A DNA stretch of 40,707 nt. Source: a virus. Position 1 is the first letter of the stretch; every line of letters begins with the position of its first letter. Positions 5,840-25,196 of the stretch are shown one piece after another. Made by a program: the position numbers and the translations under genes. Where the stretch lies: positions 1 through 40,707 of the IMG/VR virus record IMGVR_UViG_3300021952_000266. One strand, 5' to 3'. The notes under the pieces were generated by a model that was not told the origin of the DNA, did no database searches, and saw nothing but the letters and a program-made list of their open reading frames with translations.

Positions 5840-6562
5840 ATGCAGCCGCAAAAGTACGAGCGCAGTGTTGATTTCACGCAGTTTGAAGGCGACGAAACCG
5901 ACCACGCGGGAATCAATGCCGAGCTTGACGCGGCTGCACTTTCAATCAATGAGATTCGCACGAATCTCGCCAAAATCCAAAAAGACGATGGCAGCATTAA
6001 GGTTGACCAGCAGCTAATTCTTGACCTGAATGCAACCATTGCTCAGGTGCTTGATGATGCCAAGGCGTCGGCTGATTCAGCCTTGCTATCGGCTTTCTCA
6101 GCCAATGATGCCAAAACGGCAGCAGAGGCAGCCAAGGTAAGCGCAAGCGCGGCAGAAGTTGCCGCAGAAATCAGCGCTAATGCGGCAGAGGTTTCTAAAA
6201 ACCAAACTGTCCAAGCTGGCGCTCAAGCAATCACCAACATTTCTCAGCAGAGCGCACAAACGCAAGCGCTCTACACGCAAACACTGAATCAAATCAATTC
6301 GCTACTGGCAGCGGCAGGACTTCCAGCCGTGCCAGTGGCAAAAATGTTTTTGCGCGTCAAGGCTGATGCCAGTGGCTACGAATACGTTTCTTCGGCTGCC
6401 GCACCAGTTTTCTTCGGCTTCAAGTTGTCAGCAGACCAAACCGAGCTTGTGCTCACCTATGGCAACGCCGACGACTACGACGTGGCCAACTTCGACACAT
6501 GGGTGATTGGTGAAAACATCACCTTTGCCGTCGAGAAAAACCAACTTGTGAGCAAGCTATGA
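5840..6562 (+). CDS. Tail fibre stalk/adaptor protein
   Basis: A 240-residue protein preceded by AGGAGC. Its first 55 residues contain a module (TDHAGINAELD...SINEIRTNLAKIQKDDGS) that recurs at the N-terminus of the collagen-like fibre at 10216, which suggests a shared attachment domain for the virion. Residues 75-160 are a long Ala/Ser-rich heptad-like region (AAEAAKVSASAAEVAAEISA), typical of trimeric coiled-coil fibre stalks. The C-terminal 70 residues are beta-rich (FFGFKLSADQTELVLTYG). The gene ends in an ATGA overlap with the first propeller gene at 6559, so the stalk and that propeller are probably made together. Confidence 0.72.
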   Translation: MQPQKYERSVDFTQFEGDETDHAGINAELDAAALSINEIRTNLAKIQKDDGSIKVDQQLILDLNATIAQVLDDAKASADSALLSAFSANDAKTAAEAAKVSASAAEVAAEISANAAEVSKNQTVQAGAQAITNISQQSAQTQALYTQTLNQINSLLAAAGLPAVPVAKMFLRVKADASGYEYVSSAAAPVFFGFKLSADQTELVLTYGNADDYDVANFDTWVIGENITFAVEKNQLVSKL

Positions 6563-8211
6563 ACAAGATTGACATTGACGCCTTGGGCTACCGCTGGAAG
6601 GGTATTTACTCGCCATATATCGCGTACAAAGAGCGCGACGTGGTTTTCAAAGACGGTGGCGCATACGTCATTCGTGCAGGCTCACCGCAGCCATTCGCGC
6701 TTGGCCAACAAGACGCCATCATCAAAGGGCACTTGCTCACGGGTGGCATTTCGGTCGGCGGCTCTTGGGGCATGACCCTGCATTCCAATGGCGCGGGTGG
6801 CGTTGAATTCCGCTTCATGGGCGAGCGCAATGGCACCGTGGCCACCAAGCTGATTGACACAGACATTGGCGGAACTTATGTCGGGCACCGCTGGGGCATG
6901 GGCGCGATTATGAATGAGGGCGCAGTGCGCTTTTGGGGGCAGCAGACAAACGGACAAGGCGGCTCTGGCAGTCAAGACATTAACCGCATCATGCCCGCGT
7001 TGGCTGCATTCCCACCCGGTACGCCGCGCATTGTTTCCATGAAGTCAGCCTACGACGGCGTTTTCTTCATTGATGCCAATGGCGGCTTGTGGCATACGGG
7101 CGCAAACACTAGCAATGCTGGTGGCACGGGTGTTGAGCATCCAATCCCGGTCAAGCTCAATGGCGTTGGCGATATTCCTGCGAGCGCAAAAATTACCAAA
7201 GTGTTCATGGGCATTAGTTGGTATGACTACCGAACTTTTGCGTGCTTGGACGATGCGGGCCGCGTGTATGCGTGGTCAGCCAACAACCGATATGACTGCC
7301 TTGGTTTCACTGGCGCAACGGTGACGCCAAAGCTGGTGCCATTCACGGCAAGCACGCCAATCAAGGACGTTTACTTGTCTGGTGGCTATCACCCAGCGAC
7401 GTACTTCATTGATACCTTTGGCCGTTTGTGGACGTGCGGCCAGCTCTATCTTTCCGGCCAAGGCGTTGATGGACAAGTGCCACGCCTGTTCATGCCTTGG
7501 GGAGAAAACAATACCGTCAAGTGCGTGCGCACCAACGAATCAGTTTATTCAGCAGCACCAGCAGACTACTACCGCCGCGTGGCCGTCGTGCTCGATAACG
7601 GCGACCTGTATATGTGGGGCGACGATAGCGGCACAACAAACGGCGGCTGGGGTACTGGCGCAGCAGTTGGCACCGATATTGGACCAACCAACGCTCTTTT
7701 CCCATACAAGTGTTTGACGGGCGTGGCTGACTGTTACACCTTCTCTGGCGGCTACACCCGCACCATTGCCTTGATGAAAGACGGTACCGTGAAGCACACG
7801 GGTTACAACGGCTTTCAAATTGGCGGCGGTGCAGACCGTACAAGCTGGGCAACCATTGGCGGCACCTATCTGCAAAACGTCACAAAGTTGCGTTGCTGGG
7901 GTGGCGACTATGGCACCGCAGCCGTGGCCCTTCGCTCTGACGGCAAGGCCGTGGCATGGGGTCGCAATGACTATGGCCAAACTGGCAAAGGCCACGTCAC
8001 CGACGGAAGCGGGCCGGATGGTTTTGTCTTGCTTGATAAAACCATCATCGACTTCCAAATGTCGGGCTACCTCAACGCGGGAGCTGGCAATCACGCATTC
8101 CACTACCTGACAAGCGAAGGCAAGGTCTATTCGGTCGGCGCTTCTGACCGACAACAAACCCAAGACCGACCCGGCACCAGCCGCTACACGCCTCACCAAA
8201 TTGTGTTTTAA
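6559..8211 (+). CDS. RCC1-repeat beta-propeller, probable receptor-binding protein 1
   Basis: A 550-residue protein translationally coupled (ATGA) to the stalk gene. The N-terminal 40 residues carry a carbohydrate-module-like pattern, YRWKGIYSPYIAYKERDVV followed by a YV strand, common in phage fibre proteins. From about residue 105 onward the chain is built of RCC1-type blades: repeated G-x-hydrophobic-x-x-W/T-G segments such as DANGGLWHTGANTSNAGG, DDAGRVYAWSANN, DTFGRLWTCG, DNGDLYMWGDDSG, SDGKAVAWGRNDYGQTGKG. The protein ends YTPHQIVF, matching the ending of the next gene. RCC1/BLIP-II folds are seven-bladed propellers that bind ligands on their faces; in a phage fibre cassette, host-surface recognition is the natural role (inference). 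Confidence 0.8.
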   Translation: MNKIDIDALGYRWKGIYSPYIAYKERDVVFKDGGAYVIRAGSPQPFALGQQDAIIKGHLLTGGISVGGSWGMTLHSNGAGGVEFRFMGERNGTVATKLIDTDIGGTYVGHRWGMGAIMNEGAVRFWGQQTNGQGGSGSQDINRIMPALAAFPPGTPRIVSMKSAYDGVFFIDANGGLWHTGANTSNAGGTGVEHPIPVKLNGVGDIPASAKITKVFMGISWYDYRTFACLDDAGRVYAWSANNRYDCLGFTGATVTPKLVPFTASTPIKDVYLSGGYHPATYFIDTFGRLWTCGQLYLSGQGVDGQVPRLFMPWGENNTVKCVRTNESVYSAAPADYYRRVAVVLDNGDLYMWGDDSGTTNGGWGTGAAVGTDIGPTNALFPYKCLTGVADCYTFSGGYTRTIALMKDGTVKHTGYNGFQIGGGADRTSWATIGGTYLQNVTKLRCWGGDYGTAAVALRSDGKAVAWGRNDYGQTGKGHVTDGSGPDGFVLLDKTIIDFQMSGYLNAGAGNHAFHYLTSEGKVYSVGASDRQQTQDRPGTSRYTPHQIVF

Positions 8212-8223
8212 GGAAACAAGGAC

Positions 8224-9885
8224 ATGACCACCTTATCCCTCGGAAAAATTGCATTCGCTTGGAAGCAAGCCTATTCCGCAGCCGCTACCTACCAAAAGCA
8301 AGACGTTGTTTCGTACAACGGCGATAGCTTCGTGTGTTTGGTTGACGGTACCGTTGGCGTTACGCCAACCGTGAATGGCCCCAAGTGGCAACTGTTTGCC
8401 CAAGGCACGCAAGGCGTGTCGGCCAGCGCTGGTGAGGTGATTTACAACAATGGCACTTCACTGGTTGCGCTGCCGCCCGGTGTGGCTGGCCAAGTGCTCA
8501 CCATTGACGCCAATGGCTTCCCATCATGGGGAACACCAGACATTCGTTCTGGCACCAAGGTAAAGAAGCTGCCCAACGTGTCAAATGGCCGTCAAACGAC
8601 TTGCTACCGTCGCATGTACGCAATAATGACGGACAACTCAATCCGTGGTTGGGGCTACAACGACAACAAAAACTTGGGTGATGGTACGGCGCTGGCACGA
8701 CCAACACCAACTCGCCCAGCTTTCCCGCCCGGCTTCCCCGGCGCAGCAGAGCTTTATGCCGATTACGCTTACTCGCAATACTGCATCGACACCACGGGCA
8801 AGTTGTGGGTATGGGGTGACAACGCTTATGGCCAACTTGGCGTCAACGACTTGGTGGCTCGCGGGACACCAGTAAACGCCAGCAGCATTTCAACCAGCTC
8901 AATCTATGGCAAGACCATCACGCAAGTTGCTATCTCTGGTGGCAATGAGGGTTATGTGTCCGTCATGGTTTTGGCCAGCGATGGAACTGTCCACGCATGT
9001 GGCTACAACGGCTATGGCCAACTTGGATTAGGTGATGTGGTCAACCGAAGCCAATTTGTGCAAGTTGCGGTATTGAGCAACATTAAACAAATCGTGTCGG
9101 GCCGTGAGCGTTACACCGCCAACTATGCTTTGACCACTTCGGGTGCAGTGTATTCGTGGGGTTACAACGGTGACGGCCAACTTGGTGATGGCGGTACCGC
9201 AAACTCAAGCATTGCCACTTTGCGCAACGGCGGGACACTGAGCGGCAAAACAATCAGCAAGATTTTTGCTGGCAACAACTACGCATTCGCGCTCGACAGC
9301 ACTGGCGCTTTGCATGGCTGGGGCACCAATACGACGTATGGCCAACTTGGCAATGGTACGGTGGCCAACCAATTCACACCAGTGCAATGCGCGACTGGCG
9401 TGGCCGACCTATACAACTCGACCTATGACTACCCCGTTGTTTTCATCAAGAAAACAGATGGCACCATTTGGGCCGCTGGCGCTGGCGCTTATGGAGCAAA
9501 CGGCAGCACAACAGCCGTGGCAATTACAACCTTTGCGCAAATCACAGGCTTGGGCAATACCTGCCAAAAAGTCGTGACTGGTGGCACTGGCTCATACAAC
9601 TTTGCCGCGTTCTTAATGAGCAACGGCACGGTTTACACCATGGGCTACAACGGCAACGGCCAACTTGGTGTCGGTGACGTTGCGGTGCGCCAAGGCGTCC
9701 TCGCTCTGGTGCCGCTGGCAATTCGCACCGTGGTGGACATTGCAGCCTATGGCAACACTTCCGAAGGTGGCTTGCAATTCTTGCTTGATGACGGGCAGGT
9801 GGCGACGACGGGCTACGGCGGGCAGTACATGAACGGCGATAACTTGGCAAACCTTTGCTATACGCCATTCCCCATCGTTTTCTAA
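8224..9885 (+). CDS. RCC1-repeat beta-propeller, probable receptor-binding protein 2
   Basis: A 553-residue paralogue of the preceding gene, 12 bases downstream with its own AGGA. N-terminal module AFAWKQAYSAAATYQKQDVV resembles that of protein 1; the ending YTPFPIVF likewise. About eight RCC1 blade signatures are visible in order: GWGYNDNKNLGDG, VWGDNAYGQLGVND, ACGYNGYGQLGLGD, SWGYNGDGQLGDGG, GWGTNTTYGQLGNG, a divergent AAGAGAYGANG, TMGYNGNGQLGVGD and a final TTGYGGQYMNGDN. This is much closer to canonical RCC1 than protein 1. The blades are also conserved at DNA level (see repeat). Likely a receptor-binding propeller at the tail tip or fibre end; no hydrolase motif seen. Confidence 0.82.
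   Translation: MTTLSLGKIAFAWKQAYSAAATYQKQDVVSYNGDSFVCLVDGTVGVTPTVNGPKWQLFAQGTQGVSASAGEVIYNNGTSLVALPPGVAGQVLTIDANGFPSWGTPDIRSGTKVKKLPNVSNGRQTTCYRRMYAIMTDNSIRGWGYNDNKNLGDGTALARPTPTRPAFPPGFPGAAELYADYAYSQYCIDTTGKLWVWGDNAYGQLGVNDLVARGTPVNASSISTSSIYGKTITQVAISGGNEGYVSVMVLASDGTVHACGYNGYGQLGLGDVVNRSQFVQVAVLSNIKQIVSGRERYTANYALTTSGAVYSWGYNGDGQLGDGGTANSSIATLRNGGTLSGKTISKIFAGNNYAFALDSTGALHGWGTNTTYGQLGNGTVANQFTPVQCATGVADLYNSTYDYPVVFIKKTDGTIWAAGAGAYGANGSTTAVAITTFAQITGLGNTCQKVVTGGTGSYNFAAFLMSNGTVYTMGYNGNGQLGVGDVAVRQGVLALVPLAIRTVVDIAAYGNTSEGGLQFLLDDGQVATTGYGGQYMNGDNLANLCYTPFPIVF
8830..9668 (+). repeat. Five dispersed copies of GGCCAACTTGG inside the second RCC1 gene
   Basis: The identical 11-mer lies at 8830-8840, 9016-9026, 9175-9185, 9340-9350 and 9658-9668, always encoding the GQLG turn of a blade. 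Spacing is about 160-186 bases, or twice that where one blade has diverged. Repeats this similar could allow blade gain, loss or shuffling by recombination. Confidence 0.7.
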
Positions 9886-11622: not shown

Positions 11623-13011
11623 ATGCCACAAATCACCTTTGACAAATTCGACTTAGGTATTGACCTTCGCAAAGGCGCGTCAGTGTCGGACGCTAACCGC
11701 CTGCGCGAAATGAAAAACGCTTTCGTCACCACGGGCTTGGCCACGCAAAAGCGCCCCGGCTTGCTCAAGGTGGCCGAGCTGGAAGCTGGCACCAAGGGAT
11801 TGTTTGCCGCCTTCGGTAAGCTCCACACGTTTTACGGTGAAGGAACCGTCAGCCACGCCAATACGCTCTTTGAGGCGCATAAGGTTCAATACTCTGGTGG
11901 CGCTCGACCAGTGGCTGACGTGCCCTATGCCGACGTGTTTAACGCCTACATTTACGCGGCTATCCAGTACAACGACGGCACCATTGAGCACCACTACCTT
12001 GACGGCAACGCCACCACCCACATTGCTGACGCGAATTGCCCCGACACCAACGGCGTGGTCAAGTTGTCGTCAAAGCTCTTTGCCATCAAGGGCGACGTGG
12101 TGCGCTACTGCAAGACAGGAAACCCCCGCGACTGGACCACGGTAAACGACGCGGGCTTCTTGCCCACTGGCCTCAACTCACGCGGCGACCGTGCCACCAA
12201 TGCGCTGGGTATCTACCAAAACAAATTGGTGGCCCTGAGCCGCGACGGTGCGCAAATTTGGACGGTGGACCCGGACCCCAGCAATATGAAGCTGGAAGAC
12301 ATTGTTGAGAACGTCGGAACCAGCTTCCCGCGCTCCGTGGCTGCCGTATCGGGTGACTTGTACTTTCTGAGCGACTACGGCTTCCGCTCCATCACCACGT
12401 TGCAACTCACCAGCAACTTGGCCGACGTGGATGTGGGTTCGCCCATTGATTCGCTGGTACGCCCTGAGACCAAGACACCCGGCATTTTCCCGCGTGCCTT
12501 CTACTACTACGGCACGGGCCAATACATTTGCGCCATTGGCAACCGCTTATTCGTGTATTCGGTGAGCCGCACGGCAAAGATTGCCGCATGGTCACAGTAT
12601 TTCTTGACGCACCCGGTCGATGCTTTCGCAGAGCTTGGCCAAGAGCTTTATATCCGCTCCGGCGATTCAGTTTTCAAGCTGGACCCAGCCGCGTGCTCTG
12701 ACGACGGCACCCAGTTTGAGGTGTTGCTCGACTTGCCTTACATGAACTTCAAGACGCCCGGCCAACTCAAGCGCATTTATGGCGTGGACTTGGTGATTGA
12801 CGGACGTTGTGAATTCTCGATTGGCTACGACGTGCGCGACCCGGACGCCTTCACTACACCCGTGAAGGTGAAGGGCAATACCCGCCCGGCTGGAATGATT
12901 CCCGTGGAGTGCAGCGGTACCGAGTTTTCGCTTCGCTTCCGCAACTTCGATTCCAAGCCATTCAAGCTGGATGCGGTGACGATTTACTACGACGTGCTGG
13001 GACCAGTTTAA
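11623..13011 (+). CDS. Tail nozzle / head-stabilising protein (P22 gp10-like)
   Basis: A 462-residue beta-rich protein three bases after the adaptor. The N-terminus (FDKFDLGIDLRKGASVSDAN, then LREMKNAFVTTGLATQKRPG) is characteristic of the P22 gp10/tail stabilisation family, which forms the hexameric nozzle below the adaptor. Repeating segments such as NKLVALSRDGAQIWTVDPD, SGDLYFLSDYGFRSITTL and NRLFVYSVSRTAKIAAWSQY look like propeller blades, as known for gp10. The C-terminal 80 residues form a separate beta domain. The stop overlaps the start of the GNAT gene by one base (TAATG at 13009-13013). Confidence 0.8.
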   Translation: MPQITFDKFDLGIDLRKGASVSDANRLREMKNAFVTTGLATQKRPGLLKVAELEAGTKGLFAAFGKLHTFYGEGTVSHANTLFEAHKVQYSGGARPVADVPYADVFNAYIYAAIQYNDGTIEHHYLDGNATTHIADANCPDTNGVVKLSSKLFAIKGDVVRYCKTGNPRDWTTVNDAGFLPTGLNSRGDRATNALGIYQNKLVALSRDGAQIWTVDPDPSNMKLEDIVENVGTSFPRSVAAVSGDLYFLSDYGFRSITTLQLTSNLADVDVGSPIDSLVRPETKTPGIFPRAFYYYGTGQYICAIGNRLFVYSVSRTAKIAAWSQYFLTHPVDAFAELGQELYIRSGDSVFKLDPAACSDDGTQFEVLLDLPYMNFKTPGQLKRIYGVDLVIDGRCEFSIGYDVRDPDAFTTPVKVKGNTRPAGMIPVECSGTEFSLRFRNFDSKPFKLDAVTIYYDVLGPV

Positions 13012-13457
13012 TGAACCTTCGCTTGGCCACCGTTGACGACCTGCCTGAGATTTGCGTGCTTGGCAGAGGTATGCACGAAGAATCCAGCTTCGCGCCCATG
13101 GACTACGACAACGACATGGTGAAAGAAACCTTGTTGGATTTGATGCACAAAAATCAGTTCGTGGTGGTTGCAGAGGGTACAAATGGGGAAATCATCGGCG
13201 GCATGGCTGGGTCCGTGACGCAAAGCTGGTTTGGCAAAGACAGCGTGGCCAATGACTTGTGCATATTCATCCACAAGGACCACCGGGGCGGAATGCTCGC
13301 AGTCAAGCTAATCAAGCTATTTGTGCAGTGGGCCAAGCTCGCAGGCGCAAAGCAAATCAGACCCGGCGTTGTCTCTGGCAGCAGGACCGCCGAAGCATTG
13401 TATGAACGACTTGGCTTCAAGAGGACTGGGGCCACATTCTGTATGGAAGGGGAATAA
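13011..13457 (+). CDS. GNAT-family N-acetyltransferase
   Basis: A 148-residue protein. The ATG at 13011 overlaps the nozzle stop and gives the typical GNAT start (MNLRLATVDDLPEICVLGRG). An earlier in-frame GTG at 12909 would sit deep in the nozzle gene. Order of elements: beta1-alpha1 at 1-30; beta strands FVVVAEG and IIGGMAGSV around 60-80; motif A, an acetyl-CoA loop of the form FIHKDHRGGMLAVKLIKLF, near residues 90-110; then a motif-B-like end (TAEALYERLGFKRTGATFCM). Family members transfer acetyl groups from acetyl-CoA to amines. The substrate is unknown. Its place between tail nozzle and ejection proteins suggests modification of a virion or host protein. Confidence 0.83.
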   Translation: MNLRLATVDDLPEICVLGRGMHEESSFAPMDYDNDMVKETLLDLMHKNQFVVVAEGTNGEIIGGMAGSVTQSWFGKDSVANDLCIFIHKDHRGGMLAVKLIKLFVQWAKLAGAKQIRPGVVSGSRTAEALYERLGFKRTGATFCMEGE

Positions 13458-13459
13458 CT

Positions 13460-14281
13460 ATGGGCGGCGGTGGCGGCGGCGGCGGCGATGGCGGTGCAGG
13501 ACAGCGTGAGACAGAGCGACAAGCTCGAATCAAGGCTGCAACTGACGAAATCAACAACATTTTCAACAACAAATATCGTCAGAACGTGACGGTATATCGT
13601 GACGAGAGCGGCAATCAAATCACCAAAGAGCAGTATGACGCGCTCATGGCGAACTATGACCCGACGCCAATCACATCGACAGATGCAGAAGGCAATGCCG
13701 TTACATCAAGTGCGGCAGGACCATCAAGTGCAGTTGAATCTATTTGGGCAGATGGCGACCCCAACAACTCACGCGAAAAACTCTACAACGACCAAAAGAC
13801 GGCGGTGTACGACCTCAACAAAACTGAGGTGGACCGTCAAGCCAAAGAAGCCGAACGCAAGACGCGTTTTGGTTTGGCCCGTGTTGGCTTGCTTGGTGGC
13901 TCCGAAGACGTGGATGCAGCGGCAGAGAATGACCGTCGCACCAATGAAGGTTTGATGCGAGCTGGTGGCATTGCCGACCAAGCGGCTGCCGACTTCCGTG
14001 TGGCAGACGAGCGCACACGCTCCAACCTTATCAGCATGGCCCAGTCTGGAATTGACACTGGCACTGCCGCACAAATGGCGCTTGGTGGCTTGAAGGCCAA
14101 CGCTGACAGCATGGCCGAAGCACGCGCAGGCGCAACCGTCGGCGGCTTGTTCAATGACCTGAGCCAAGCCTATTTGGCCAACCAAGTTTTGGCTGGCAAG
14201 GCCAACGGCGCAGGCTATGGCCAGCAATGGTATGGCGTGTCGAACCCACGACAAACCAGCCAAGGCACCGTGCAGAGCTAA
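13460..14281 (+). CDS. Putative internal/ejection protein with poly-Gly N-terminus
   Basis: A 273-residue protein starting with MGGGGGGGGDGGAG, then helical, Ala/Gln/Asp-rich sequence with no hydrophobic core motif. Residues 115-215 are strongly helical (VDRQAKEAERKTRFGLARVG, then NDRRTNEGLMRAGGIADQAA). In P22-like and related podoviruses, three poorly conserved, helical Ala-rich proteins follow the tail genes and are ejected into the cell with the DNA (gp7/gp16/gp20 type). Composition and position match that set. The Gly run is encoded by a GGCGGC-rich stretch at 13463-13495, a possible length-variable site. Confidence 0.62.
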   Translation: MGGGGGGGGDGGAGQRETERQARIKAATDEINNIFNNKYRQNVTVYRDESGNQITKEQYDALMANYDPTPITSTDAEGNAVTSSAAGPSSAVESIWADGDPNNSREKLYNDQKTAVYDLNKTEVDRQAKEAERKTRFGLARVGLLGGSEDVDAAAENDRRTNEGLMRAGGIADQAAADFRVADERTRSNLISMAQSGIDTGTAAQMALGGLKANADSMAEARAGATVGGLFNDLSQAYLANQVLAGKANGAGYGQQWYGVSNPRQTSQGTVQS

Positions 14282-14290
14282 GGGGAAGAC

Positions 14291-14779
14291 GTGCAAGAGT
14301 TAGTCGTCAGCAGCCCAAGCAACATTGCCGTCACTGGCAATGCGTGCTTGCCTGCCATGACCCAAGACCAAATCAACAAGGTGGAAGTCTTGGAACATTT
14401 CTCGCGTGCGCTTTGCGAGCAAGAGAACATACCGACTGAGCACTTGATTCACGGCGGCATGTATGCCCGCACCGTCCACATGCCAGTGGGCACCGTACTG
14501 ACTGGGGCGCTCTTGAAGCTGCCCACCGTGCTGATTGTCGCGGGCGATTGTGCGGTGTTCATTGGTGAAGAAACCATTGAGCTTCGTGGCTATTCGGTAC
14601 TGCCAGGCAGTGCTGGCCGCAAGCAGGCATTTCTTGCACACACCGACGTGAGCATGACCATGCTATTTCCAACGCAAGCCACGACAGTAGCCCAAGCAGA
14701 GCAAGAATTCACTGACGAATACGAGCTTTTAATGAGCAACTTTCAAGACTGCGTGACCACACGAATTACAGGAGAGTGA
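14291..14779 (+). CDS. Cupin-like protein in the ejection cluster
   Basis: A 162-residue GTG-initiated protein (GGGGAAG precedes the start). The central part looks like a single cupin barrel: HGGMYARTVHMPVGTVLTGAL, then a strand LIVAGDCAVFIGEETIELRG, then SVLPGSAGRKQAFLAHTDVS. Such small beta-barrel proteins occur among virion genes of T7-like and other podoviruses; their role is not established. Possible metal-binding His residues are present (H at the start of the HGG motif, H in MYARTVH, H in LAHTD) but I cannot show a bound metal. Confidence 0.62.
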   Translation: MQELVVSSPSNIAVTGNACLPAMTQDQINKVEVLEHFSRALCEQENIPTEHLIHGGMYARTVHMPVGTVLTGALLKLPTVLIVAGDCAVFIGEETIELRGYSVLPGSAGRKQAFLAHTDVSMTMLFPTQATTVAQAEQEFTDEYELLMSNFQDCVTTRITGE

Positions 14780-14780
14780 C

Positions 14781-15518
14781 ATGGCAGGTGTATTAACCGC
14801 AACCCAAATGGCCGCATTGGCGGCGATGGTTGCTGGCTCATATATGCAGTATCAAGCAAACGTCGATGCCGCAGACCGTCAGCAGTCAGCCATTCGTCAA
14901 AGCCTCGACCGCCAAGCCGAGCTGCAAAAGCAAGCCGAAAAAAAGGCGGTGGACACTGCCGCCAAATTTGCGCCGGGCGACCGAATCAAAGAGCAGGCCG
15001 CGCTTGAGCAGCAAATCACCCAAGACCTGATTAAGCCCGTCAATGAAAGCCAAGCCATTCGCTCCGAGCAGGCCACCACGCAAGGCGACGTGTCGGGCGA
15101 CTACTCAACAGCCAAAGCAACGGCCACGGCCAACTCATTGAAATCGGCGGAAGCGCTCGCCCGCTTGCTGGGTAAGACCACTTCGGCCAACCGCTTGCGC
15201 ATGAATGAGGGCATTCGCCTCATGGACACTGGCCAACAAATTGACCAGCTCAACAGCTTCTCGCGTGGCCAACAGGCTGCCGACCAAATCGGCATTCAAG
15301 TTGCTGGCCGACCTGATGCCGAGCAAGTCTTCATGGGTAGCTTGCTGCAAGCAGGTGGCAGCGCCGGGATGATGTACGGCGGCGGTGGAACCACGGCAGT
15401 GTCACCAGCAGAAGTGAATGCCGCGAATGCCAGCGCCGACCCTATTGCGTCGCTCAACGCTCAAAAGGGATGGACGGGCACAAACAACAATTCTTGGTTG
15501 AGCGCATTCAAAAAATAA
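14781..15518 (+). CDS. Putative internal virion/ejection protein (T7 gp14-like character)
   Basis: A 245-residue protein one base after the cupin-like gene. It starts with a hydrophobic segment (LTATQMAALAAMVAGSYMQY) followed by long amphipathic, Gln/Ala-rich helices (DRQQSAIRQSLDRQAELQKQ and on to EKKAVDTAAKFAPGDRIKEQ). This layout is typical of small internal virion proteins that insert in the envelope during DNA ejection, such as T7 gp14 or P22 gp7. The C-terminus is Gly/Asn-rich and likely flexible. Assignment from composition and context. Confidence 0.62.
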   Translation: MAGVLTATQMAALAAMVAGSYMQYQANVDAADRQQSAIRQSLDRQAELQKQAEKKAVDTAAKFAPGDRIKEQAALEQQITQDLIKPVNESQAIRSEQATTQGDVSGDYSTAKATATANSLKSAEALARLLGKTTSANRLRMNEGIRLMDTGQQIDQLNSFSRGQQAADQIGIQVAGRPDAEQVFMGSLLQAGGSAGMMYGGGGTTAVSPAEVNAANASADPIASLNAQKGWTGTNNNSWLSAFKK

Positions 15519-15527
15519 GGCACACAC

Positions 15528-16880
15528 ATGAATTTCACACTAGACGGCGCAAGCGGCGCACAAGCAGCAGGCCAAGGACTTGGCAGCATGTTCAAAGCTG
15601 CCGCCATGGCTCCATTACTTCGCCAGCAGGCAGAGGCCGATTCGGCGCTCAAGGGTGCGCAGCTCTACCATCACACGATGGCAGGCAATAAGTTGGGCGT
15701 GGAAGCAAACCAAAAACTTGGTGCGCTGGCTATTCAAAACGACCCGCTCGAAAACACCATGCTGAGTTTGGGCCTGCCGACACAGCTTGCGCCAGCCTTC
15801 CGCGAAAAAATCACCACGGGCAACTGGGGTGGTCCATACGTTGCGCCTGCCGACGGCGTGGGTCCAACCATGCCAGCGCCAGCCAATGACGACACCGTGA
15901 AGAAATTGGCCCAAGCAATGTCGCTCACCCAGCGCATGTTTGCCACTGGCAGCAACGTGCACCAAGGCGCACAAGCGGCACTGGAAGAACAGAAGGCACG
16001 CGGAATTGACGCGGTGGTGGCCAACCCAGCGCTCGCACCAAACTACGGCAAAGCCAATGCAGCCGCAGCAGGCAAGCCGCTTTTCGACAATGTGGGCAAT
16101 ACGGGTTACAGCATTGACAGCTTCACAGGTGGACAGGCAGAGGCCAACCCAGTTTTGGCCAAACTCTTTGCCACTGTGGAAAATTCCAAGGCTAATGAGA
16201 ACAACGCGCAAGCCAAGAACGCCAACGCGTCGGCACGCAAGCACACGCTCGAAGGCGACGCGCTCGATGGCGCAGCAGGTGGAAACGGCGGCAGCGGCAA
16301 ACCTTTGACCAATGCACAGCTTCGTACCAACGAAGACGTGGAAGCGGCACGCAAGTACGTCACCGACATGCCACGCGAAACAATCGCGGCAGTGTTGCGC
16401 AAGAACGAAATGGACTTGACCCAGCAGGACAAAGACGTTTTGGCCCGCATCAAGAAGGCACGCACTGCCAAGTTTGGCGAGAAGGGTGTGCCCGACCAGT
16501 ACAACGACATGCTTGGCCTTGACCAGAATGTTGTGCAGCAACTTGCAGGCGCTTTAGCCAACCCCGGCACCAACCAAGCTGGCGTGCTTTCAAAACTCTT
16601 TGGCGGCACTGACAAGCCAATGACAGAGGAAGAAATCGTCAAGGGCGTGATGGCCAATGCTGGAACGGCAGAGCAGGCGAACCAAGCGCAATACGTCGCA
16701 GCAGCAAAGACGAAAAACCGCAACGGAACACCAGCGCCAGCAGGTGACAAAAATCCGTCGGGTGGTGGCGCAGCTCCCAAAATTGAGGCCAAAGTCCCCG
16801 CTGGCTACAAGCAGATTGGCACCTCAAACGGCAAACCAGTCTATCAAGCACCAGACGGGAAAAAATACGTTATGGAGTGA
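15528..16880 (+). CDS. Putative ejection protein, 450 aa
   Basis: A 450-residue Ala/Asn/Gln-rich protein with helices in the N-terminal half (LGSMFKAAAMAPLLRQQAEA) and few hydrophobic stretches. A Gly-rich linker (GGNGGSGKPLT) lies near residue 255. The segment RKYVTDMPRETIAAVLRKNE to about residue 320 is a compact charged domain. The last 40 residues (AGYKQIGTSNGKPVYQAPDG) form a short beta motif seen at the ends of several phage ejection proteins. It lies between the gp14-like protein and the giant polyvalent protein, the usual ejection gene block. No enzymatic motif is visible. Confidence 0.6.
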   Translation: MNFTLDGASGAQAAGQGLGSMFKAAAMAPLLRQQAEADSALKGAQLYHHTMAGNKLGVEANQKLGALAIQNDPLENTMLSLGLPTQLAPAFREKITTGNWGGPYVAPADGVGPTMPAPANDDTVKKLAQAMSLTQRMFATGSNVHQGAQAALEEQKARGIDAVVANPALAPNYGKANAAAAGKPLFDNVGNTGYSIDSFTGGQAEANPVLAKLFATVENSKANENNAQAKNANASARKHTLEGDALDGAAGGNGGSGKPLTNAQLRTNEDVEAARKYVTDMPRETIAAVLRKNEMDLTQQDKDVLARIKKARTAKFGEKGVPDQYNDMLGLDQNVVQQLAGALANPGTNQAGVLSKLFGGTDKPMTEEEIVKGVMANAGTAEQANQAQYVAAAKTKNRNGTPAPAGDKNPSGGGAAPKIEAKVPAGYKQIGTSNGKPVYQAPDGKKYVME

Positions 16881-16883
16881 TAA

Positions 16884-19800
16884 ATGGCCCTTCAAGAGTT
16901 CACCGGGAAACTAGACGAAACCCCCAAGCTGAAAGAATTTACCGGGAACCTTGATAGCGAGAGCCAAAGCACTGGCGGCACGCTGGGTGAAATCACGTCG
17001 GTAGTCAAATCGCTTTTTGCACCCAAGCCTGCCAGCGTCATGGAAGGATTGCCAGCCGACCCGGCGGCTTTTGACTTCAACAAGGCAAGCCGCCTGCAAC
17101 GCCAGCTAGACGACGAAGCCCAGCGACGCAAAGACTTCGGCACCATTGGTCCGATTGTCGGACCTAAGCCGTCCACCATGAGCGTGATTAACGGCCTATT
17201 CACTGACTTGGTGGCGGGCGGCAAAGGCACCCGTGCTGGTATCAACCAAATGGCGGGCGACCTTACTGGCTCCGAATACCTGCTAGACAAAGCCCGACGC
17301 GAGCGTGGCCAAGCCGACTTGATGACGGCGGTAAATACGCCTGAGTTTGAGAGCGAGACCGCCAAAGGCGTTTATGGTGGCGTATCAAGCATGGTGCGCA
17401 ATGCCATTCCCACGGCAGCGGCCATCGTCACGCGAAACCCTGAATTGGCGCTTGGCGGCATGGTGGCCCCCATGGTGCCCGACGAATACAGCAAATTCCG
17501 TCAGCGTGGCGCAGCGCCCGGCGAGGCTTTGCTTGGCGCAACTGGTACCGCAGGCATTGAATACCTCACCGAGAAAACGCCCATGGGCTTCTTGGTCAAC
17601 AACTTTGGCAAAGCTGGTACCGCAAAAATCATTTCTAGTTTTATTGCAAAAGATGCAATCCCCGAACAGGTTGCCACGCTTACGCAAGACGCCATTGACA
17701 CCGCCATTGCCAACCCTGATAAAACTTGGGGTGAATACTTAGCAGAACGTCCAAGCGCGGCGTATCAAACATTGGTGGCGACTGCAACACAAGCAGGATT
17801 GATGGGAGCTGCAAATTCAGCAACGCGTCGATTGATGAATCAGCCAGAACCAACGCAACCAGTCGCGCCGACCAGCACCGACTATCAAGCGCTGGTCAAC
17901 AAAGTATTTGGCAACGGCCAAGCGCCCGCAGCACCAACGCAGCAAGCGCCCGTATCGGTGCAGCAAGCGCCTCAAATCACCCCAGTGGCACCAGCACCCC
18001 AGCCAGCGGAGCAAACGCCCCAGCAGCCCGCACAAGCGCTGGCGCAGCTCATTGCCAACACTGCCACCCAAGAGAGCCCGCTCGATGTGCCAAGCACGTC
18101 GCTGCCGTCAGTCATTGACCCGCTGAATGGAAATACCGTTGAGCCAACCGACCCGCGTTATGCCGACGTGGTAAAGGCGAAGGGAAGCGCAGCACCAGAA
18201 GAAGCCCGCGCCCATGTGGCCACGCTCACACCCGTGGCTGACGACATTCAACTGGACAAGGAGCCCGTAGCCAATGGCGCAGAAAATGTTTTACAGCCCG
18301 TGGATTCAAGCACCACTGGAAGCGTTGCACCTGACACAGACACAAGCGTGGCAGCTCCACAGCGAGTACGCGACGCCGGGCAACTGGACCTCACAGGAAA
18401 TGGAACGACTGAGCCAGCGGTGCGCACTGCACCATTGGCAACCGACGGACAGCTACCGCAGCAAGATGCACCTGCAAACGCCCAACCCGTTGCCGATGTA
18501 ACGGCACCCGTTACGCAGCCTGCCACCTTGGTGGCTACCGAGGCAGGGGCCGGGGATGCCCAGCCGTCGCAGGCTGCACCCACAACCAAGCCCACGGGCT
18601 ACATTGGCCAAGACGGCACCAGCATTGACGAAGGCGGCACGCCATTCAAGACCAAGCAGGCCGCACAGAAGGCCAAGAAGCTGCAACCCATGATGCGCGT
18701 CAAGCAAGTCGAAGGCGGCTTTGTGCTGGCTGACAAGACGCCCGCGCAGCTCGCAGCCGAAGCCAAGGCAGCCAAGCGAATCAGTGGAGCGAATGCAGAA
18801 GCCGGGTCCAAAGGCAAGCCAATGGCTGCCCATGAATTCATTGCGTCGCGTGGTGGCATGGCTCCGAGCGAGCGCTCCGACCTTGGTATTGAAGGCAACA
18901 TCAAGATTGGCAACCGCTGGCTTTTCGCTGGCGCTGGCAAAGGCATGACCATTGCCCAAGCCACCGAGGCATTGCAAGAGGCTGGCTATCTCAACGAAGA
19001 CAGCCACAACGCAGCGTATGACCTAATCAAACGCAGCGTGAGCAATCCCCAGTACACATACGAAGGCTGGGACCGAATCGCAGAGCTGGAAATGCAAACC
19101 CAGTTTGAGGACTACTTGGCCAGCCAACAAGAAGCCGCCCAAGAAGACAACTTCGACCCATTTGCACCGCTCGACGATGCAGGCTTCACACAAGAAGACG
19201 CAGACGCGGCAGGGTTTGGCCAAGCCTCACCTGAGCTGCAAGCAGAAGTGGCCGCGCTGGCTGCCCAACTGGATGCACAAGGCATGGACGCCGAGGGCAT
19301 CATGGAGCGAATCGCGGTACAGTACCCACAAGCCACCCAAGACGAATACTATGAACACGCCAAAGACGCAATCACCCAAGCCATTGCCGAAGCAACCAAG
19401 CCCGCAAGCAGTGGAAATGCTGGCCAAGATGGTGGCCAACAAAGCGCAACGCCAGAAACAAGCGCAGAGCAAGCCGACCAAGGGCTGACCAGCTACACGC
19501 CTCAAGACATTGAGGACCGCTTGGCCAAGCTCGAAAAGTCCGAGCAAGAGCGCAAACGCCAAGAGCAAGAAGCCGAGCAAAAGGCCAAGGCCGACGCCGA
19601 GCGCGACACCTTCACCCTGACTGGCAGCGACCGTGCTGCCGACGTGGCCGCAGCACAAGGCCAGCAGGATATTTTCAGCGCTGCAAATGATGCGCAAGCC
19701 GCAGAGCCGCAAGCAGAAGCGAAGGCAGAGCCAGCGCCAGCCAAACCAGCACGCAAACAAAAAGACACGGCTGCCGCATTCCGCACCAAGCTGGAAGACC

Positions 19801-22800
19801 ACTTTGCCGTGGGCAACATCATTAAGAGCGACTATTGGGGAACACATAGCCGCGTCACTGCATTCGACTGGAATGATGGCAACTGGTCCGTCACTCAAGA
19901 GAAGGTTGAGCAAAAAGATGGTGAGTGGGTTGCCGTCGAAGGACCGCGCAGCCATTCCACTGCACCGTCGAAAAAAGACGTGGTGGTGGAGCGTGCCGAG
20001 CAACAAGCACCCGCACCAGAGGCAAAGACCGACACCCAAAAAATCACCGACTTTGGCGAGAAGATTGGCGGCGCACGCAAAGACGTGTGGACCTCATTTA
20101 AAGACCAGCTCAATGAAGTGGAAGACGGCGACATTGCAAGCCAGCCACTTTCAAAGGTGTGGCCGCTGCCTGACTACCAAGCAATGATTGACGGCGGCAC
20201 CGACCCTTGGGCCGTGGCCTTCGTGCGTGCAGCACGCGACGAAATCCCAGCCAAGCCACGCGCACCGTACAAGGTCAAGCGTTGGGCTGGCCAAGTTCAA
20301 TCGTTGCGCTCGATGGCCAACGACGTGATGGCCGAAGACCCGACCGCACGCGAGAAGGCCAAAGAGCTTTTCAACAGCTCAACAATCCTCAAGCCGTTGC
20401 GTGGGCGCGTTGAGCTTTACATGGAAGTGGGCCATTCAAAATCACTTGAAGGCATCACGTTTGAGAACAACTTTTATTCGCTCTATCGTGGCGAGCAAAA
20501 CGTCAGCAAGTGGGTAATTTCGCAGCGCACCAGTTCGTCATTTGGCAACTGGCCACGCGAATTTGTGGCGACCGACACCAAAGAAGAAGCCATTGCCAAG
20601 TTCAAGGAAATGCACGCGGCGCTGGGCAGCAAGTCAGACGCGAAGAAGCAAACCAGCTTTGACATTTATTCAAAACTCAAAGTCAAAGGCTACTTCGTCG
20701 GCAAGAAAGTTGGCCGCAACTACATTGATTTGGCCGGGCCATTCGACACGGTGAAAGAGGCCCGCACCTACAAGAACGACAGCCAAGACGAGCTGGTGGC
20801 CAAGCTGGAAAAGGCCAAAGAGATTCCCATGGAGCGGCGCAATATCAACGACCCACGCGTGGGCGAAGACATGCGCCATGGCCAAGACGTAACGCCACAA
20901 GAATTTGGCCAAGCGTTTGGTTTCCGTGGCGTGGAGTTTGGCAACTGGGTTGAGCAAGGCCGACGCCAACAAGACCTCAATGACGCATACGACGCATTGA
21001 TGGACATGGCCGCGTTGCTCGATATTCCACCAAAGGCAATCTCGCTGAATGGCGAGCTTGGCCTTGCATTCGGTGCCCGTGGTGGTGGTGGCGTCAACCC
21101 GGCAGCCGCGCACTATGAGCGCGACAAGGTGGTGATTAACCTGACCAAGAAAAATGGCGCAGGCAGCCTTGGCCATGAATGGTGGCACGCGCTGGACAGT
21201 TACTTTTCACGCCAGCGCAAGAAACCAGACGGCATGATGACTGACGCCACAGACGTGAAGCTGGCGTCGCGTGACAGCAAGTATTTCTACGAAGACAAGG
21301 GCGTGCGTCAAGAAATGATTGTCGCCTTTGGCCGCGTGATGAAGTCGATTAACACCACGGCCATGAAGGCCCGCTCAAGCGTGCTGGACGGAAAGCGAAG
21401 CAAAGAGTATTGGACCACCGACGTGGAAATGTCGGCACGCGCATTCGAGAGCTATTTGATTTCAAAGCTGCACGACCAAAACGCGTCCAACGACTACTTG
21501 GCCAACATTGCCAGCGAAGACACTTGGAACGCCATGGCGGCGCTTGGCATTGAGCTGGACAACAGCTACCCTTACCCGACAGCGGGCGAAATCCCTGAGA
21601 TTCGCGCAGGCTTTGACGCATTCTTCAACGCCATTGAGCACCGGGAATCGGACAAGGGAATTGAGCTTTATGAACCCGAAGCTCAATACAATGTTGACGC
21701 ACCCAAGACAAAATACACCGATGACAAGCAACTCCAACTTTTCCTCGATAACGGACCTGACCAAAGCCAAGCAGGCACGCGTGGAGAAGTTGCCCAACGG
21801 GCAGCCGTTGCCGCCGTGGACGACCTACGACGCACCGAAACCTTACTTGGCCTCGCCTTGTCAAGTGATTACGCTGCCCGTCAACGCGCAACCCTTGTCG
21901 GACAAACAGTAAGCAGCACCGAAGACCTCGCCACGCTGGCGCAGGTGTACCGCGACCCACGTTTTGAAACCTTCCGCGTGGTGTTCGTCAATGACAGTGG
22001 CAACGTCGTTTCCCAAGTTGGCCTCACCAGCCGCTTGCCAGCCTCAACGCAGGCAATCATGGGCAATGACGCTGATTCGTACCTTGCCAGCATTTCAGCC
22101 ACCGCACGCAACCGTGGCGCGACGGGCTATTACTTGCTGCACAACCACCCCAGCGGTGAGCCTGCACCAAGCCGTGCCGACATTCGCCTCACGCAACACT
22201 TTGCCGAAACCATCAAAGATTTGGAATTCAAATCGCATGTGGTGATTGACACCAACAAGTACACCACCATTGGCAAGACGGGCCTGACTGATTTCTTTTA
22301 CAAGAACTTTGGCCAGCCTGAGCCATTCACCGCGCAGGAATGGGCCGACGTAAAAATTGGCGGGCCTGCCGACGTTATGAGCATGACCAAGCGCCTTGAA
22401 GTTGACCGCGATTCGGTGACATTGATTCACACTGATGCGCAATTCAAGGTCAAAGCTATTAGCACCATCCCCGTGAAGGTGGCTATTGGCGGCGACAGCA
22501 AAAAGGCAATCATCAAGGCGTCACTGAAAACGCAAGGCTCGCAGGTGTTCGCAGTGAGCACCAGCCCCATTGCATTGAAGAAAATCGCACCCCACATCCG
22601 TGACGGTATCTTGGTGCGTGACGACGGCAGCGTGCGCAGCCTTGCCGAATCGGGCGAGCTTGGTGGTGGTGAGCCATTCCCAGCCAGCCGACGCACACGC
22701 CTGAGCCCCGACACCAGCCCTGAGTTTGGCTACCTTCGCAGCTTTGGCCAAGAGGCCGAATTGAAGGTTGCCGAGCTGGGCAAGGAATATGGCGGCGACC

Positions 22801-25196
22801 AGCAAACCGAGCTTGACCTCAACGTGCCCGGCGTGAAGTTGGAGCCAGTCAGCGCCAAAGACGCATTCAGCCTTGACACCAATGCAGCAGGCCGCAAAGA
22901 GTGGACGCTTGGCCGCAAGCTCTACGACAACATGGCCACGGTGGCCACGGAATACTTGGGCCGGGTGAAGCTGGCCGACAACCGACCTGCCGAATTCAAG
23001 CAGATGATGCGCCAATTCCGCGTGGACCAAAACAAGGCCACCGAGAGCGCCAAGGCCATTGCAGAGAAGGGCATGGAGCTGACGCCTGAGCAACGCGTGC
23101 TCTTGTCCGACCTGATTGAGAAGCAGGGCATGGTGGGCGACGTACCACCGCAGGAAATGGTGGAGCTGGCCGCGTCAATCACTGCCGCGCTGGAAACCCA
23201 AGCCCGCGACCTCATTGAGCTGGGCATGTTGTCCGAAGACCGCTTGGTGAAAGACTACCTGCCACGCCTATACAAAACGCCACTGGTGGCCAGCCTCACC
23301 AACAAGCAAATGTTTATGTCGTGGTTCACCAAAACCCGCATGAAGATTCGTGGCGCTCGCCTGCAATCGCGTGGCTTGGTCAATGAGGTGCCGATTGAGA
23401 AAGTCGAGCTTGCCAAGAAATTTGGCTGGAAGGTATCGAGCTTGGCCGACGGTGACAACCTGCCGCAAAACTTGTTGGACGTGCTCGAATCGGGCGGCAA
23501 AATCCCCGCGAAATTCAAAGGCACCAAAGTCGTCATGTGGCGCGACTTCACTGAGAGCGAGCGGCAGGACATGGGCGAAGTGCGTGACGCGGTGTTGCGC
23601 TATGCCATGGGCTATGTGGAGACCCAGCGCGACGTGGCCATTGGCCGCTTGTTCAAAGCCGTGGCCACCAACCCCGACTTGGCCAAGACCTTCAACCCCG
23701 GCGGCTGGGTGCAGGTGCCCAACACCGAAATCAAAGGCGCACCCGGCACCAAGACCTATGGCGCACTGGCTGGCATGTACGTCGAGCCACAAGTGGCCGA
23801 TTCACTCAAGCGCAACACACAACCCAAGGGCGTGCTCATGGCCGCTTACGACAAAGCGTTGGGCTGGTGGAAAGAAGGCAAGACCGTTTGGAACCCAGTA
23901 AGCCACGGCAACAACGTGGTGAGCAACGTGTTCGTGATGCACTTTGCTGGCCTCAACCCTGCCAACCCTGCCAACTGGCGCAACACCGTGCGCGAGTACC
24001 GCACCAAGGGCCAGTATTACCAAGAGGCCGTGGACAAAGGCTTGTTCGGTACCGAGTGGGCAACGATGGAAATTCAAAACTTGCTCATGCCTGATTTGGC
24101 CGACATGGCCGACATTGAGAGCGTGGCAACGTCGCGGGTTTCCAAGGTGGCTGAATTCTTGAAGAAGACAGGCAAGCCCGTGAGCTGGTACCGCGAGAAC
24201 ATGCAGCGGGCCTATGAGTTTGAAGACCAATTCTTCAAGCTGATGATTTACGCCGACCGACGCAAGGCAGGCATGACGCCTGAGCAAGCTATCGAGGACA
24301 CCGAGCGATACATTTTCAACTACGCTGATTTGCCAGAGGGCGTGGAGAACATCAAGCGTGTTTACAGCCCGTTTTTCTCATACACCTATAAAGCCGTGCC
24401 GATGGTGATTCACACCGCCATGACGCGCCCCGACCGCTTGCTGGTGCCCATTGCTTTGCTCAGTGGTGCCAACTGGCTGGGCTACCTTATCAGCGGTGGT
24501 GACGAAGACAAAGAGCGCAAGGGCTTGCCAGACTACATGCAAGGCCGCTCTGCCATTGGCACGCAAAAAGCCATTCGTATGCCATTCGACGTGGAAGGCA
24601 AACCAGCCTTCATGGACGTGACGCGCCGGGTGCCGCTGGGTGATTTGTTCGACACCAACAACCAAGCCAACGGCCTGCCAGTGCCCGCGCCTTTGATGCC
24701 TTCACACCCGTTGCTTTCAATGACGGCAGCAATCGCGTGGAACGTGGACACATTCAGCGGCAAGGACTTGGTGAAGAAGTCAGACACAGCTTGGGAAGCC
24801 GCGAAAACCCGTGCGGGCTACGTTTACAAACAACTGACCCCCAACGCGCCATTCGTGCCCGGCAGCTACAACTTCAACAAGCTCATGGATTCGGCAGCGT
24901 ACAGCTTCGACACCGAGATTGGACCGTACACCGGGCGCACCAAAGCGGGCGACCCAATACCGCTTTCCACCACGCTGCCCGACGTGTTCACTGGCACCAA
25001 GATTCGTGCCGTTGACCCTGAGCGTGGCATTGAGTACAAGCGTGCCGACATTGCCAAAGAGGTGCGCGAGATTCAATCCAATATCCGAAGCGCTAACCGC
25101 AATCAGTCCATGACCAGCGACAGCCGCGAGCGCTACAACCAAGAGCAACGCGACAAGCTGGACGAGCTGAAAAAGAAACGCGAAGCCCTGCAATAA
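16884..25196 (+). CDS. Giant ejected polyvalent protein with LPD1/HEWWH zincin and RadC-like JAMM domains (2770 aa)
   Basis: About 300 kDa, by far the largest gene. In order: a short tandem motif EFTGKLD/EFTGNLD at residues 4-24; helical, partly hydrophobic region about 150-310 (LVNNFGKAGTAKIISSFIAK); Pro/Gln-rich linker 310-400; low-complexity Ala/Gln/Glu region about 640-960; a small domain near 970-1045 (WGTHSRVTAFDWNDGNW); an LPD1-type domain about 1319-1440 ending in a zincin motif HEWWH at 1431-1435 (LGHEWWHALDSYF). A RadC-like JAMM domain about 1655-1810 follows, with H1753-x-H1755, S1763 and D1766 in the exact H-x-H-x7-S-x2-D order. Then a long C-terminal region with a hydrophobic stretch near 2520. 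Phage polyvalent proteins of this type are thought to enter the host with DNA and disarm defences; its position among ejection genes fits. The stop is at 25194-25196. Confidence 0.85.
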   Translation: MALQEFTGKLDETPKLKEFTGNLDSESQSTGGTLGEITSVVKSLFAPKPASVMEGLPADPAAFDFNKASRLQRQLDDEAQRRKDFGTIGPIVGPKPSTMSVINGLFTDLVAGGKGTRAGINQMAGDLTGSEYLLDKARRERGQADLMTAVNTPEFESETAKGVYGGVSSMVRNAIPTAAAIVTRNPELALGGMVAPMVPDEYSKFRQRGAAPGEALLGATGTAGIEYLTEKTPMGFLVNNFGKAGTAKIISSFIAKDAIPEQVATLTQDAIDTAIANPDKTWGEYLAERPSAAYQTLVATATQAGLMGAANSATRRLMNQPEPTQPVAPTSTDYQALVNKVFGNGQAPAAPTQQAPVSVQQAPQITPVAPAPQPAEQTPQQPAQALAQLIANTATQESPLDVPSTSLPSVIDPLNGNTVEPTDPRYADVVKAKGSAAPEEARAHVATLTPVADDIQLDKEPVANGAENVLQPVDSSTTGSVAPDTDTSVAAPQRVRDAGQLDLTGNGTTEPAVRTAPLATDGQLPQQDAPANAQPVADVTAPVTQPATLVATEAGAGDAQPSQAAPTTKPTGYIGQDGTSIDEGGTPFKTKQAAQKAKKLQPMMRVKQVEGGFVLADKTPAQLAAEAKAAKRISGANAEAGSKGKPMAAHEFIASRGGMAPSERSDLGIEGNIKIGNRWLFAGAGKGMTIAQATEALQEAGYLNEDSHNAAYDLIKRSVSNPQYTYEGWDRIAELEMQTQFEDYLASQQEAAQEDNFDPFAPLDDAGFTQEDADAAGFGQASPELQAEVAALAAQLDAQGMDAEGIMERIAVQYPQATQDEYYEHAKDAITQAIAEATKPASSGNAGQDGGQQSATPETSAEQADQGLTSYTPQDIEDRLAKLEKSEQERKRQEQEAEQKAKADAERDTFTLTGSDRAADVAAAQGQQDIFSAANDAQAAEPQAEAKAEPAPAKPARKQKDTAAAFRTKLEDHFAVGNIIKSDYWGTHSRVTAFDWNDGNWSVTQEKVEQKDGEWVAVEGPRSHSTAPSKKDVVVERAEQQAPAPEAKTDTQKITDFGEKIGGARKDVWTSFKDQLNEVEDGDIASQPLSKVWPLPDYQAMIDGGTDPWAVAFVRAARDEIPAKPRAPYKVKRWAGQVQSLRSMANDVMAEDPTAREKAKELFNSSTILKPLRGRVELYMEVGHSKSLEGITFENNFYSLYRGEQNVSKWVISQRTSSSFGNWPREFVATDTKEEAIAKFKEMHAALGSKSDAKKQTSFDIYSKLKVKGYFVGKKVGRNYIDLAGPFDTVKEARTYKNDSQDELVAKLEKAKEIPMERRNINDPRVGEDMRHGQDVTPQEFGQAFGFRGVEFGNWVEQGRRQQDLNDAYDALMDMAALLDIPPKAISLNGELGLAFGARGGGGVNPAAAHYERDKVVINLTKKNGAGSLGHEWWHALDSYFSRQRKKPDGMMTDATDVKLASRDSKYFYEDKGVRQEMIVAFGRVMKSINTTAMKARSSVLDGKRSKEYWTTDVEMSARAFESYLISKLHDQNASNDYLANIASEDTWNAMAALGIELDNSYPYPTAGEIPEIRAGFDAFFNAIEHRESDKGIELYEPEAQYNVDAPKTKYTDDKQLQLFLDNGPDQSQAGTRGEVAQRAAVAAVDDLRRTETLLGLALSSDYAARQRATLVGQTVSSTEDLATLAQVYRDPRFETFRVVFVNDSGNVVSQVGLTSRLPASTQAIMGNDADSYLASISATARNRGATGYYLLHNHPSGEPAPSRADIRLTQHFAETIKDLEFKSHVVIDTNKYTTIGKTGLTDFFYKNFGQPEPFTAQEWADVKIGGPADVMSMTKRLEVDRDSVTLIHTDAQFKVKAISTIPVKVAIGGDSKKAIIKASLKTQGSQVFAVSTSPIALKKIAPHIRDGILVRDDGSVRSLAESGELGGGEPFPASRRTRLSPDTSPEFGYLRSFGQEAELKVAELGKEYGGDQQTELDLNVPGVKLEPVSAKDAFSLDTNAAGRKEWTLGRKLYDNMATVATEYLGRVKLADNRPAEFKQMMRQFRVDQNKATESAKAIAEKGMELTPEQRVLLSDLIEKQGMVGDVPPQEMVELAASITAALETQARDLIELGMLSEDRLVKDYLPRLYKTPLVASLTNKQMFMSWFTKTRMKIRGARLQSRGLVNEVPIEKVELAKKFGWKVSSLADGDNLPQNLLDVLESGGKIPAKFKGTKVVMWRDFTESERQDMGEVRDAVLRYAMGYVETQRDVAIGRLFKAVATNPDLAKTFNPGGWVQVPNTEIKGAPGTKTYGALAGMYVEPQVADSLKRNTQPKGVLMAAYDKALGWWKEGKTVWNPVSHGNNVVSNVFVMHFAGLNPANPANWRNTVREYRTKGQYYQEAVDKGLFGTEWATMEIQNLLMPDLADMADIESVATSRVSKVAEFLKKTGKPVSWYRENMQRAYEFEDQFFKLMIYADRRKAGMTPEQAIEDTERYIFNYADLPEGVENIKRVYSPFFSYTYKAVPMVIHTAMTRPDRLLVPIALLSGANWLGYLISGGDEDKERKGLPDYMQGRSAIGTQKAIRMPFDVEGKPAFMDVTRRVPLGDLFDTNNQANGLPVPAPLMPSHPLLSMTAAIAWNVDTFSGKDLVKKSDTAWEAAKTRAGYVYKQLTPNAPFVPGSYNFNKLMDSAAYSFDTEIGPYTGRTKAGDPIPLSTTLPDVFTGTKIRAVDPERGIEYKRADIAKEVREIQSNIRSANRNQSMTSDSRERYNQEQRDKLDELKKKREALQ

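Follow-up and report, generated by a model that had tools for sequence, protein, structure and literature searches.

Here, we present an analysis of a giant gene in the 40,707-nucleotide viral record IMGVR_UViG_3300021952_000266 (IMG/VR; positions 1 to 40,707; hereafter, the window), which is the genome of a temperate tailed phage encoding portal-like and major head proteins, tail fibers, an integrase, a CI-like repressor, and a lysozyme. The gene (16884-25196; plus strand, like its domains, the three genes upstream of it, and the lysozyme gene described below) is one intact open reading frame (ORF) that runs from ATG to stop over 2770 codons and occupies 20.4% of the window, in agreement with the original prediction, which was made from the sequence without database searches. 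That prediction also considered the product a polyvalent protein, and we indeed find LPD5, a zincin, LPD1, and a RadC-type JAB domain together in the one ORF. With a probability of roughly 0.55, we favor the interpretation that this is a phage-type polyvalent protein, i.e., a carrier that travels in the virion and combines a peptidase for processing with a cargo that can be exchanged. According to this model, the N-terminal module (residues 1-345) and the LPD38-type C-terminus (residues 1985-2770) would be generic virion-protein parts for packaging and ejection; the LPD5-zincin-LPD1 core (residues 1045-1612) would act as a CLCA_X-type metallopeptidase complete in itself, its most likely task being to split the long chain into functional pieces either before packaging or after entry; and a cassette (residues 1597-1984) would deliver a RadC-type JAB metallohydrolase and a catalytically dead JAB partner, with nucleic acid or nucleotides as the most likely substrate of the JAB, whose action would protect or prepare the incoming DNA. 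The model builds on what the analysis shows: which domains are present, how conserved they are, which folds are predicted, and that the cassette is exchanged among relatives; in the functional steps, our confidence falls from virion carriage through entry with the DNA and processing by the zincin to the action of the JAB on nucleic acids or nucleotides.

The core (20016-21719) recurs, at 37-76% identity, in dozens of giants whose hosts belong to many groups. Here and below, relatives are loci fetched by similarity to the window giant, and counts among them are not an unbiased census. The core comprises LPD5 (residues 1206-1344; 20499-20915; Pfam E value 4.6e-39), the motif HEWWH (residues 1431-1435; 21174-21188) in a predicted helix, and LPD1 (residues 1501-1586; 21384-21641; Pfam E value 3e-18); the Pfam scores of LPD5, LPD1, and RadC all exceed the curated cut-offs. 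In the AlphaFold2 model of the core (59-sequence alignment; predicted local distance difference test [pLDDT] of 86.9), a helix and three strands precede the HExxH helix, which is followed by a Glu-bearing helix. In the widespread phage-type MPTase clade, a His ends strand 2, an Asp lies 3 residues past HExxH, and a Glu is present on the second C-terminal helix (Iyer 2017, PMC5512222). The window protein carries this signature in H1410, which ends strand 2, and in D1438, 3 residues after HExxH; and H1410, H1431, E1432, H1435, D1438, and E1515 are unchanged in 59/59 aligned relatives. E1515 (21426-21428) is the proposed third zinc ligand. As this residue belongs to the first helix of LPD1 as defined by Pfam, LPD1 and the zincin probably constitute a single domain. 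HEWWH itself is located where it had been predicted; its placement inside an LPD1-like domain is rejected as stated, as Pfam LPD1 starts 66 residues past the motif, which lies between LPD5 and LPD1, though LPD1 apparently holds the third ligand. Similarly, the region 970-1320, to which no role had been assigned, overlaps LPD5 and is in part no longer nameless. In the model, LPD5 looks over residues ~1191-1311 (20454-20817) like two successive strand-strand-strand-helix repeats, a layout that does not obviously suggest an enzyme, although Iyer 2017 proposed an enzymatic LPD5.

The NCBIfam model CLCA_X (NF041907; 250 positions) spans residues 1325-1545 (E value 8e-40) at 136.9 bits versus the curated 260. 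CLCA_X is a zincin family reported in 2013, mostly from phages and plasmids, and BPP-1 Bbp10 is one of its seeds (PMC3650047). Judged by this model, the core zincin is a homologue of CLCA_X and not a member, and, by profile and motif, HEWWH belongs to the already described CLCA_X/phage-type zincins. A search with the core sequence against solved structures gave nothing meaningful.

The RadC-type JAB domain of the cassette (residues 1655-1800; 21846-22283) was found by Pfam RadC (residues 1679-1796; E value 3e-11; 43.8 bits versus a cut-off of 22.1) and by fold prediction; the model matches the RadC structure PDB 2qlc in Foldseek (E value 1.3e-5, probability 1.00, template modeling score of 0.76 to the target), and phmmer concurs (E value 0.0011). 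The scores for two whole-protein models of cellular RadC stay below their cut-offs (39.1 versus 180 bits and 38.1 versus 133.85 bits). The JAMM set E/H/H/S/D is complete. Its residues 1753-1766 (HNHPSGEPAPSRAD; 22140-22181) are exactly at the positions given in the original prediction and are conserved in aligned relatives (H1753 in 36/36, H1755 in 35/36, S1763 in 34/36, and D1766 in 36/36). E1695 (21966-21968), which is assigned as the probable catalytic glutamate by its position in the sequence, lies before the HxH in the motif RDPRFETxR (21951-21977), which does not vary among the aligned phage giants (35/35) and is nearly unchanged on a plasmid described below; several invariant arginines beside E1695 could bind phosphate. 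RadC-type JABs have been argued to lack the groove for a ubiquitin tail, and nucleic-acid or nucleotide substrates have been favored (Iyer 2017, PMC5512222). Residues ~1812-1920 (22317-22643) repeat the strand/helix order of the first JAB (hhalign E value 5.6e-7 over 115 columns), and the metal ligands are gone from this second copy. Based on alignment and modeling, the two copies are a predicted active/dead JAB pair. Structure prediction of the segments, a check that had been proposed together with the original prediction, places HEWWH as well as the JAMM motif in conserved domains with appropriate predicted folds.

The cassette (21672-22835) is cleanly exchangeable. In three sibling giants (L005, L007, and L009), the JAB pair is swapped for another domain that carries an HExxH of its own, at identical breakpoints (1596/1985) and between homologous flanks, the DNA identity to the window gene being 75-77% just before residue 1596 and 82-88% from residue 1985 onward. 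Another sibling giant (L013, 8738-15484), which shares the C-terminus, has HELIGH in place of HExxH; such an HExxxH-spaced variant of the zincin motif was noted by Iyer 2017 (PMC5512222). Conversely, five relatives (L081, L082, L085, L088, and L089) keep the JAB, have no HExxH anywhere, and in most cases keep the N- and C-terminal modules; L085 and L088 carry ddrB-ParB, and L088 additionally PBECR5. Among 118 distinct giants, 62 have the HE[W/F]xHxxD zincin and 42 the RDPR-type JAB; both are present by strict pattern in just three (L003, L080, and L083) and by looser patterns also in L115 and L033/L034. An obligatory linkage of zincin and JAB is thereby rejected. Some relatives have a JAB and no HExxH, others a zincin and no JAB; these sequence patterns identify the two as independent modules and not as one concerted two-protease weapon.

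The JAB with its dead copy is present in many other IMG/VR giants of 2000-5700 residues, and BFVD includes uncultured-phage entries (1276-1429 residues) with a RadC-like JAB; therefore, the window is not the only case of RadC in a phage giant. In isolated phages, the tandem was not found; searches there gave weak, partial matches only, and the two annotated cases that we opened are short solo RadC-like genes. On a plasmid of Nitrosomonas sp. sh817 (NZ_CP133084.1; L237, 8919-12942), an ArdC-N/MPTase-PolyVal/Toprim gene is directly followed by a free gene for a JAB and a dead JAB. By homology, this pair is a two-gene counterpart of the phage fusion, and its position beside an ArdC-N/zincin/Toprim gene suggests that the JAB module is tied to DNA entry.

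The two ends of the protein point to the virion. The N-terminal module (16884-17918) is common to other giant phage proteins and matches residues 108-392 of BPP-1 Bbp10 (E value 5e-41); the C-terminal module (22836-25193) is likewise a common C-terminus of giant phage proteins. The profile of the latter matches gp69 of Burkholderia phage JC1 (E value 4e-8) over its LPD38 region, as well as the giant of the Stx phage P27, and profile comparison delimits a stretch at residues ~2390-2570 (24051-24593) that is homologous to the LPD38 region of the relatives and JC1 gp69. Pfam LPD38 is found in the C-termini of relatives and in JC1 gp69; it is not matched in the window protein, the C-terminal profile of which overlaps or adjoins the LPD38 region of the relatives and JC1 gp69 in alignments. 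Because of this absence, we describe the window C-terminus only as LPD38-type. In Foldseek, the C-terminus matches 64 viral models at an E value of ≤0.001, many of them named polyvalent. The last ~790 residues, of which the final 700 had been left nameless, are probably a packaging/ejection end.

Mass spectrometry of purified JC1 virions identified gp67, gp68, and gp69 (PMC9144972). Homology to JC1 gp69 and the gene order make it likely that the window giant is carried in the virion, and homology of the N-terminus to BPP-1 Bbp10 and the conserved neighbor genes are further pointers to its possible delivery into the host with the DNA. Of the claim that the protein is virion-borne, encoded in an ejection block, and ejected, carriage is the likely part; the ejection block and ejection are inferred. 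Three genes immediately upstream (13460-14281, 14781-15518, and 15528-16880; 13460-16880 as a block) are near the giant gene in ~30 fetched relatives and presumably encode internal virion/ejection proteins; family searches with them gave no informative match, and no homology of the small upstream proteins to JC1 gp64 or the BPP-1 neighbors was detected.

Several observations weigh against our model. The confidence of the structure model of residues 1600-2770 is moderate (pLDDT of 68.6), and the best PDB matches of the core in Foldseek are zincins but weak (best E value 0.009). Carriage in the virion is argued from homology and gene order, and the small upstream proteins have no detectable homology to JC1 gp67/gp68. 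Moreover, several giants share the N-terminus, JAB, and C-terminus but lack any HExxH, indicating that such a design does not depend on cutting. Finally, while the literature favors self-processing of a polyvalent protein by its zincin, with P1 DdrB, which is processed before packaging, as a precedent for self-cleavage, the N4 virion RNA polymerase has a zincin and yet is packaged uncut (Iyer 2017, PMC5512222).

The original prediction read both metal sites as those of peptidases and considered that the protein could cleave host defense or signaling proteins right after entry. Polyvalent zincins have been considered possible effectors (Iyer 2017, PMC5512222), and that siblings carry a second, distinct HExxH domain in place of the cassette is as expected for exchangeable effectors. 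However, no target is indicated, and PADLOC defense-system models gave no match. Also, the core zincin is the conserved and not the variable part of the family, so that housekeeping fits better than an effector role, and the literature assigns self-processing to the zincin and nucleic acids or nucleotides to RadC-type JABs, which are argued to be without the ubiquitin-tail groove. Cleavage of host defense proteins by both sites is possible, with nothing specific in its favor, and we regard this explanation as clearly less probable than a processing peptidase with a cargo. Alternatively, the zincin core could serve packaging or structure, with peptidase activity being incidental, as for the N4 enzyme, in which encapsidation depends on the zincin region and the protein remains uncut (PMC5512222). 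We find this doubtful: the active-site residues are all invariant in 59 relatives, and giants without the core keep the same ends, arguing that the core is not a general packaging need.

As a more far-reaching and rather improbable reading, we speculate that the cassette may be an intramolecular active/dead JAB pair, like the eukaryotic MPN+/MPN- pairs, that is a mobile entry factor, used by phages as cargo of giant ejected proteins and by conjugative plasmids in the form of a free gene, is released by the neighboring zincin, and neutralizes a host defense on incoming DNA. A separate rival explanation starts from bacterial ubiquitin-like defense systems, which tag phage parts: the JAB pair could be an isopeptidase that removes such tags from phage particles or proteins. 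The JAB model weakly matches Rpn11-type and other MPN enzymes in Foldseek, and the active/dead pairing resembles Rpn11-Rpn8 and BRCC36-KIAA0157, both of which are also among the matches. However, the MPN matches have E values of 0.04 or worse versus 1e-5 for RadC, and the reported lack of the ubiquitin-tail groove in RadC-type JABs also makes an isopeptidase unlikely. That the motifs arose by chance or are decayed in a purely structural protein is rejected, as each pattern matches once in the whole protein against expectations from its own composition of 0.015 (HExxH) and 0.0009 (HxHx7SxxD), the catalytic residues are near-totally conserved, and appropriate folds are predicted.

Between the N-terminal module and the core, an Ala/Pro/Gln-rich linker region contains a recurrent conserved stretch (residues 540-760; 18501-19163). 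Downstream of the giant gene, a phage lysozyme (25701-26132; E value 8e-33) is the first of the lysis genes. Just upstream of the giant-gene block, an acetyltransferase gene (12909-13457) is conserved in ~23 relatives; an N-acetyltransferase is encoded at a comparable place in JC1, and a sequence match between the two was not found. In the tail region, the products of 6559-8211 and 8224-9885 match PHROG families labeled "regulator of chromosome condensation," possibly reflecting RCC1-like repeats in apparent tail fibers, and the product of 10216-10899 matches collagen-like tail-fiber families. The nearest bacterial genome match that covers most of the giant protein is a Polynucleobacter strain (67%), and there are no DNA-level relatives of the window among 50,697 phage records of isolates.

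The kind of protein, the zincin, and the JAB family are already known. Within the reach of the tools used, the tandem of an active and a dead JAB, the clean replacement of this tandem by a second zincin in siblings, and a firm case of RadC in an LPD38-type phage giant are new; no description of the tandem was found in the open-licence literature. Altogether, our findings provide a concrete, testable polyvalent design in which the ends are constant, the peptidase hub is conserved, and the content of a single slot is cleanly exchanged between sibling phages. The natural variants (zincin with JAB, zincin with a second zincin, and JAB without zincin) are a ready comparison for the purpose of the peptidase, and the tandem is a clear lead on the chemistry of RadC-type domains.

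Like the phage-type polyvalent proteins surveyed by Iyer 2017 (PMC5512222), the window protein is a very long multidomain chain with LPD domains, a zincin hub, and disparate activities in a phage late-gene context; it differs in that RadC occurs as an active/dead tandem in a phage giant with an LPD38-type end, while the survey assigns RadC only to conjugative elements in one place and mentions prophages in another. The zincin resembles CLCA_X zincins in the matching stretch and in the HExxH followed by a conserved Asp, and the N-terminus of the seed Bbp10 is homologous to that of the window protein; unlike them, it is embedded between LPD5 and the cassette and scores below the curated value. 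The JAB shares the fold and JAMM residues of RadC (PDB 2qlc), but the upstream part of the RadC models is unmatched, and the window protein instead has the invariant RDPRFETxR and a degenerate JAB copy that follows. JC1 gp69, from a Bcep22-like phage, is likewise a giant encoded late in the structural block with an LPD38-type C-terminus, and is virion associated; however, its load consists of a transglycosylase, helicase/methylase-type domains, and LPD3 in contrast to LPD5-zincin and JAB. The LPD5 giants of Stx-converting podoviruses (P27, Traversvirus) have a homologous core (36% identity over residues 1052-1596) and an LPD38 C-terminus, but lack the JAMM motif. Finally, the JAB gene of Nitrosomonas sp. 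sh817 also combines a JAB with a degenerate copy (31% identity over 288 aligned positions), but encodes a separate 368-amino-acid protein on a conjugative plasmid.
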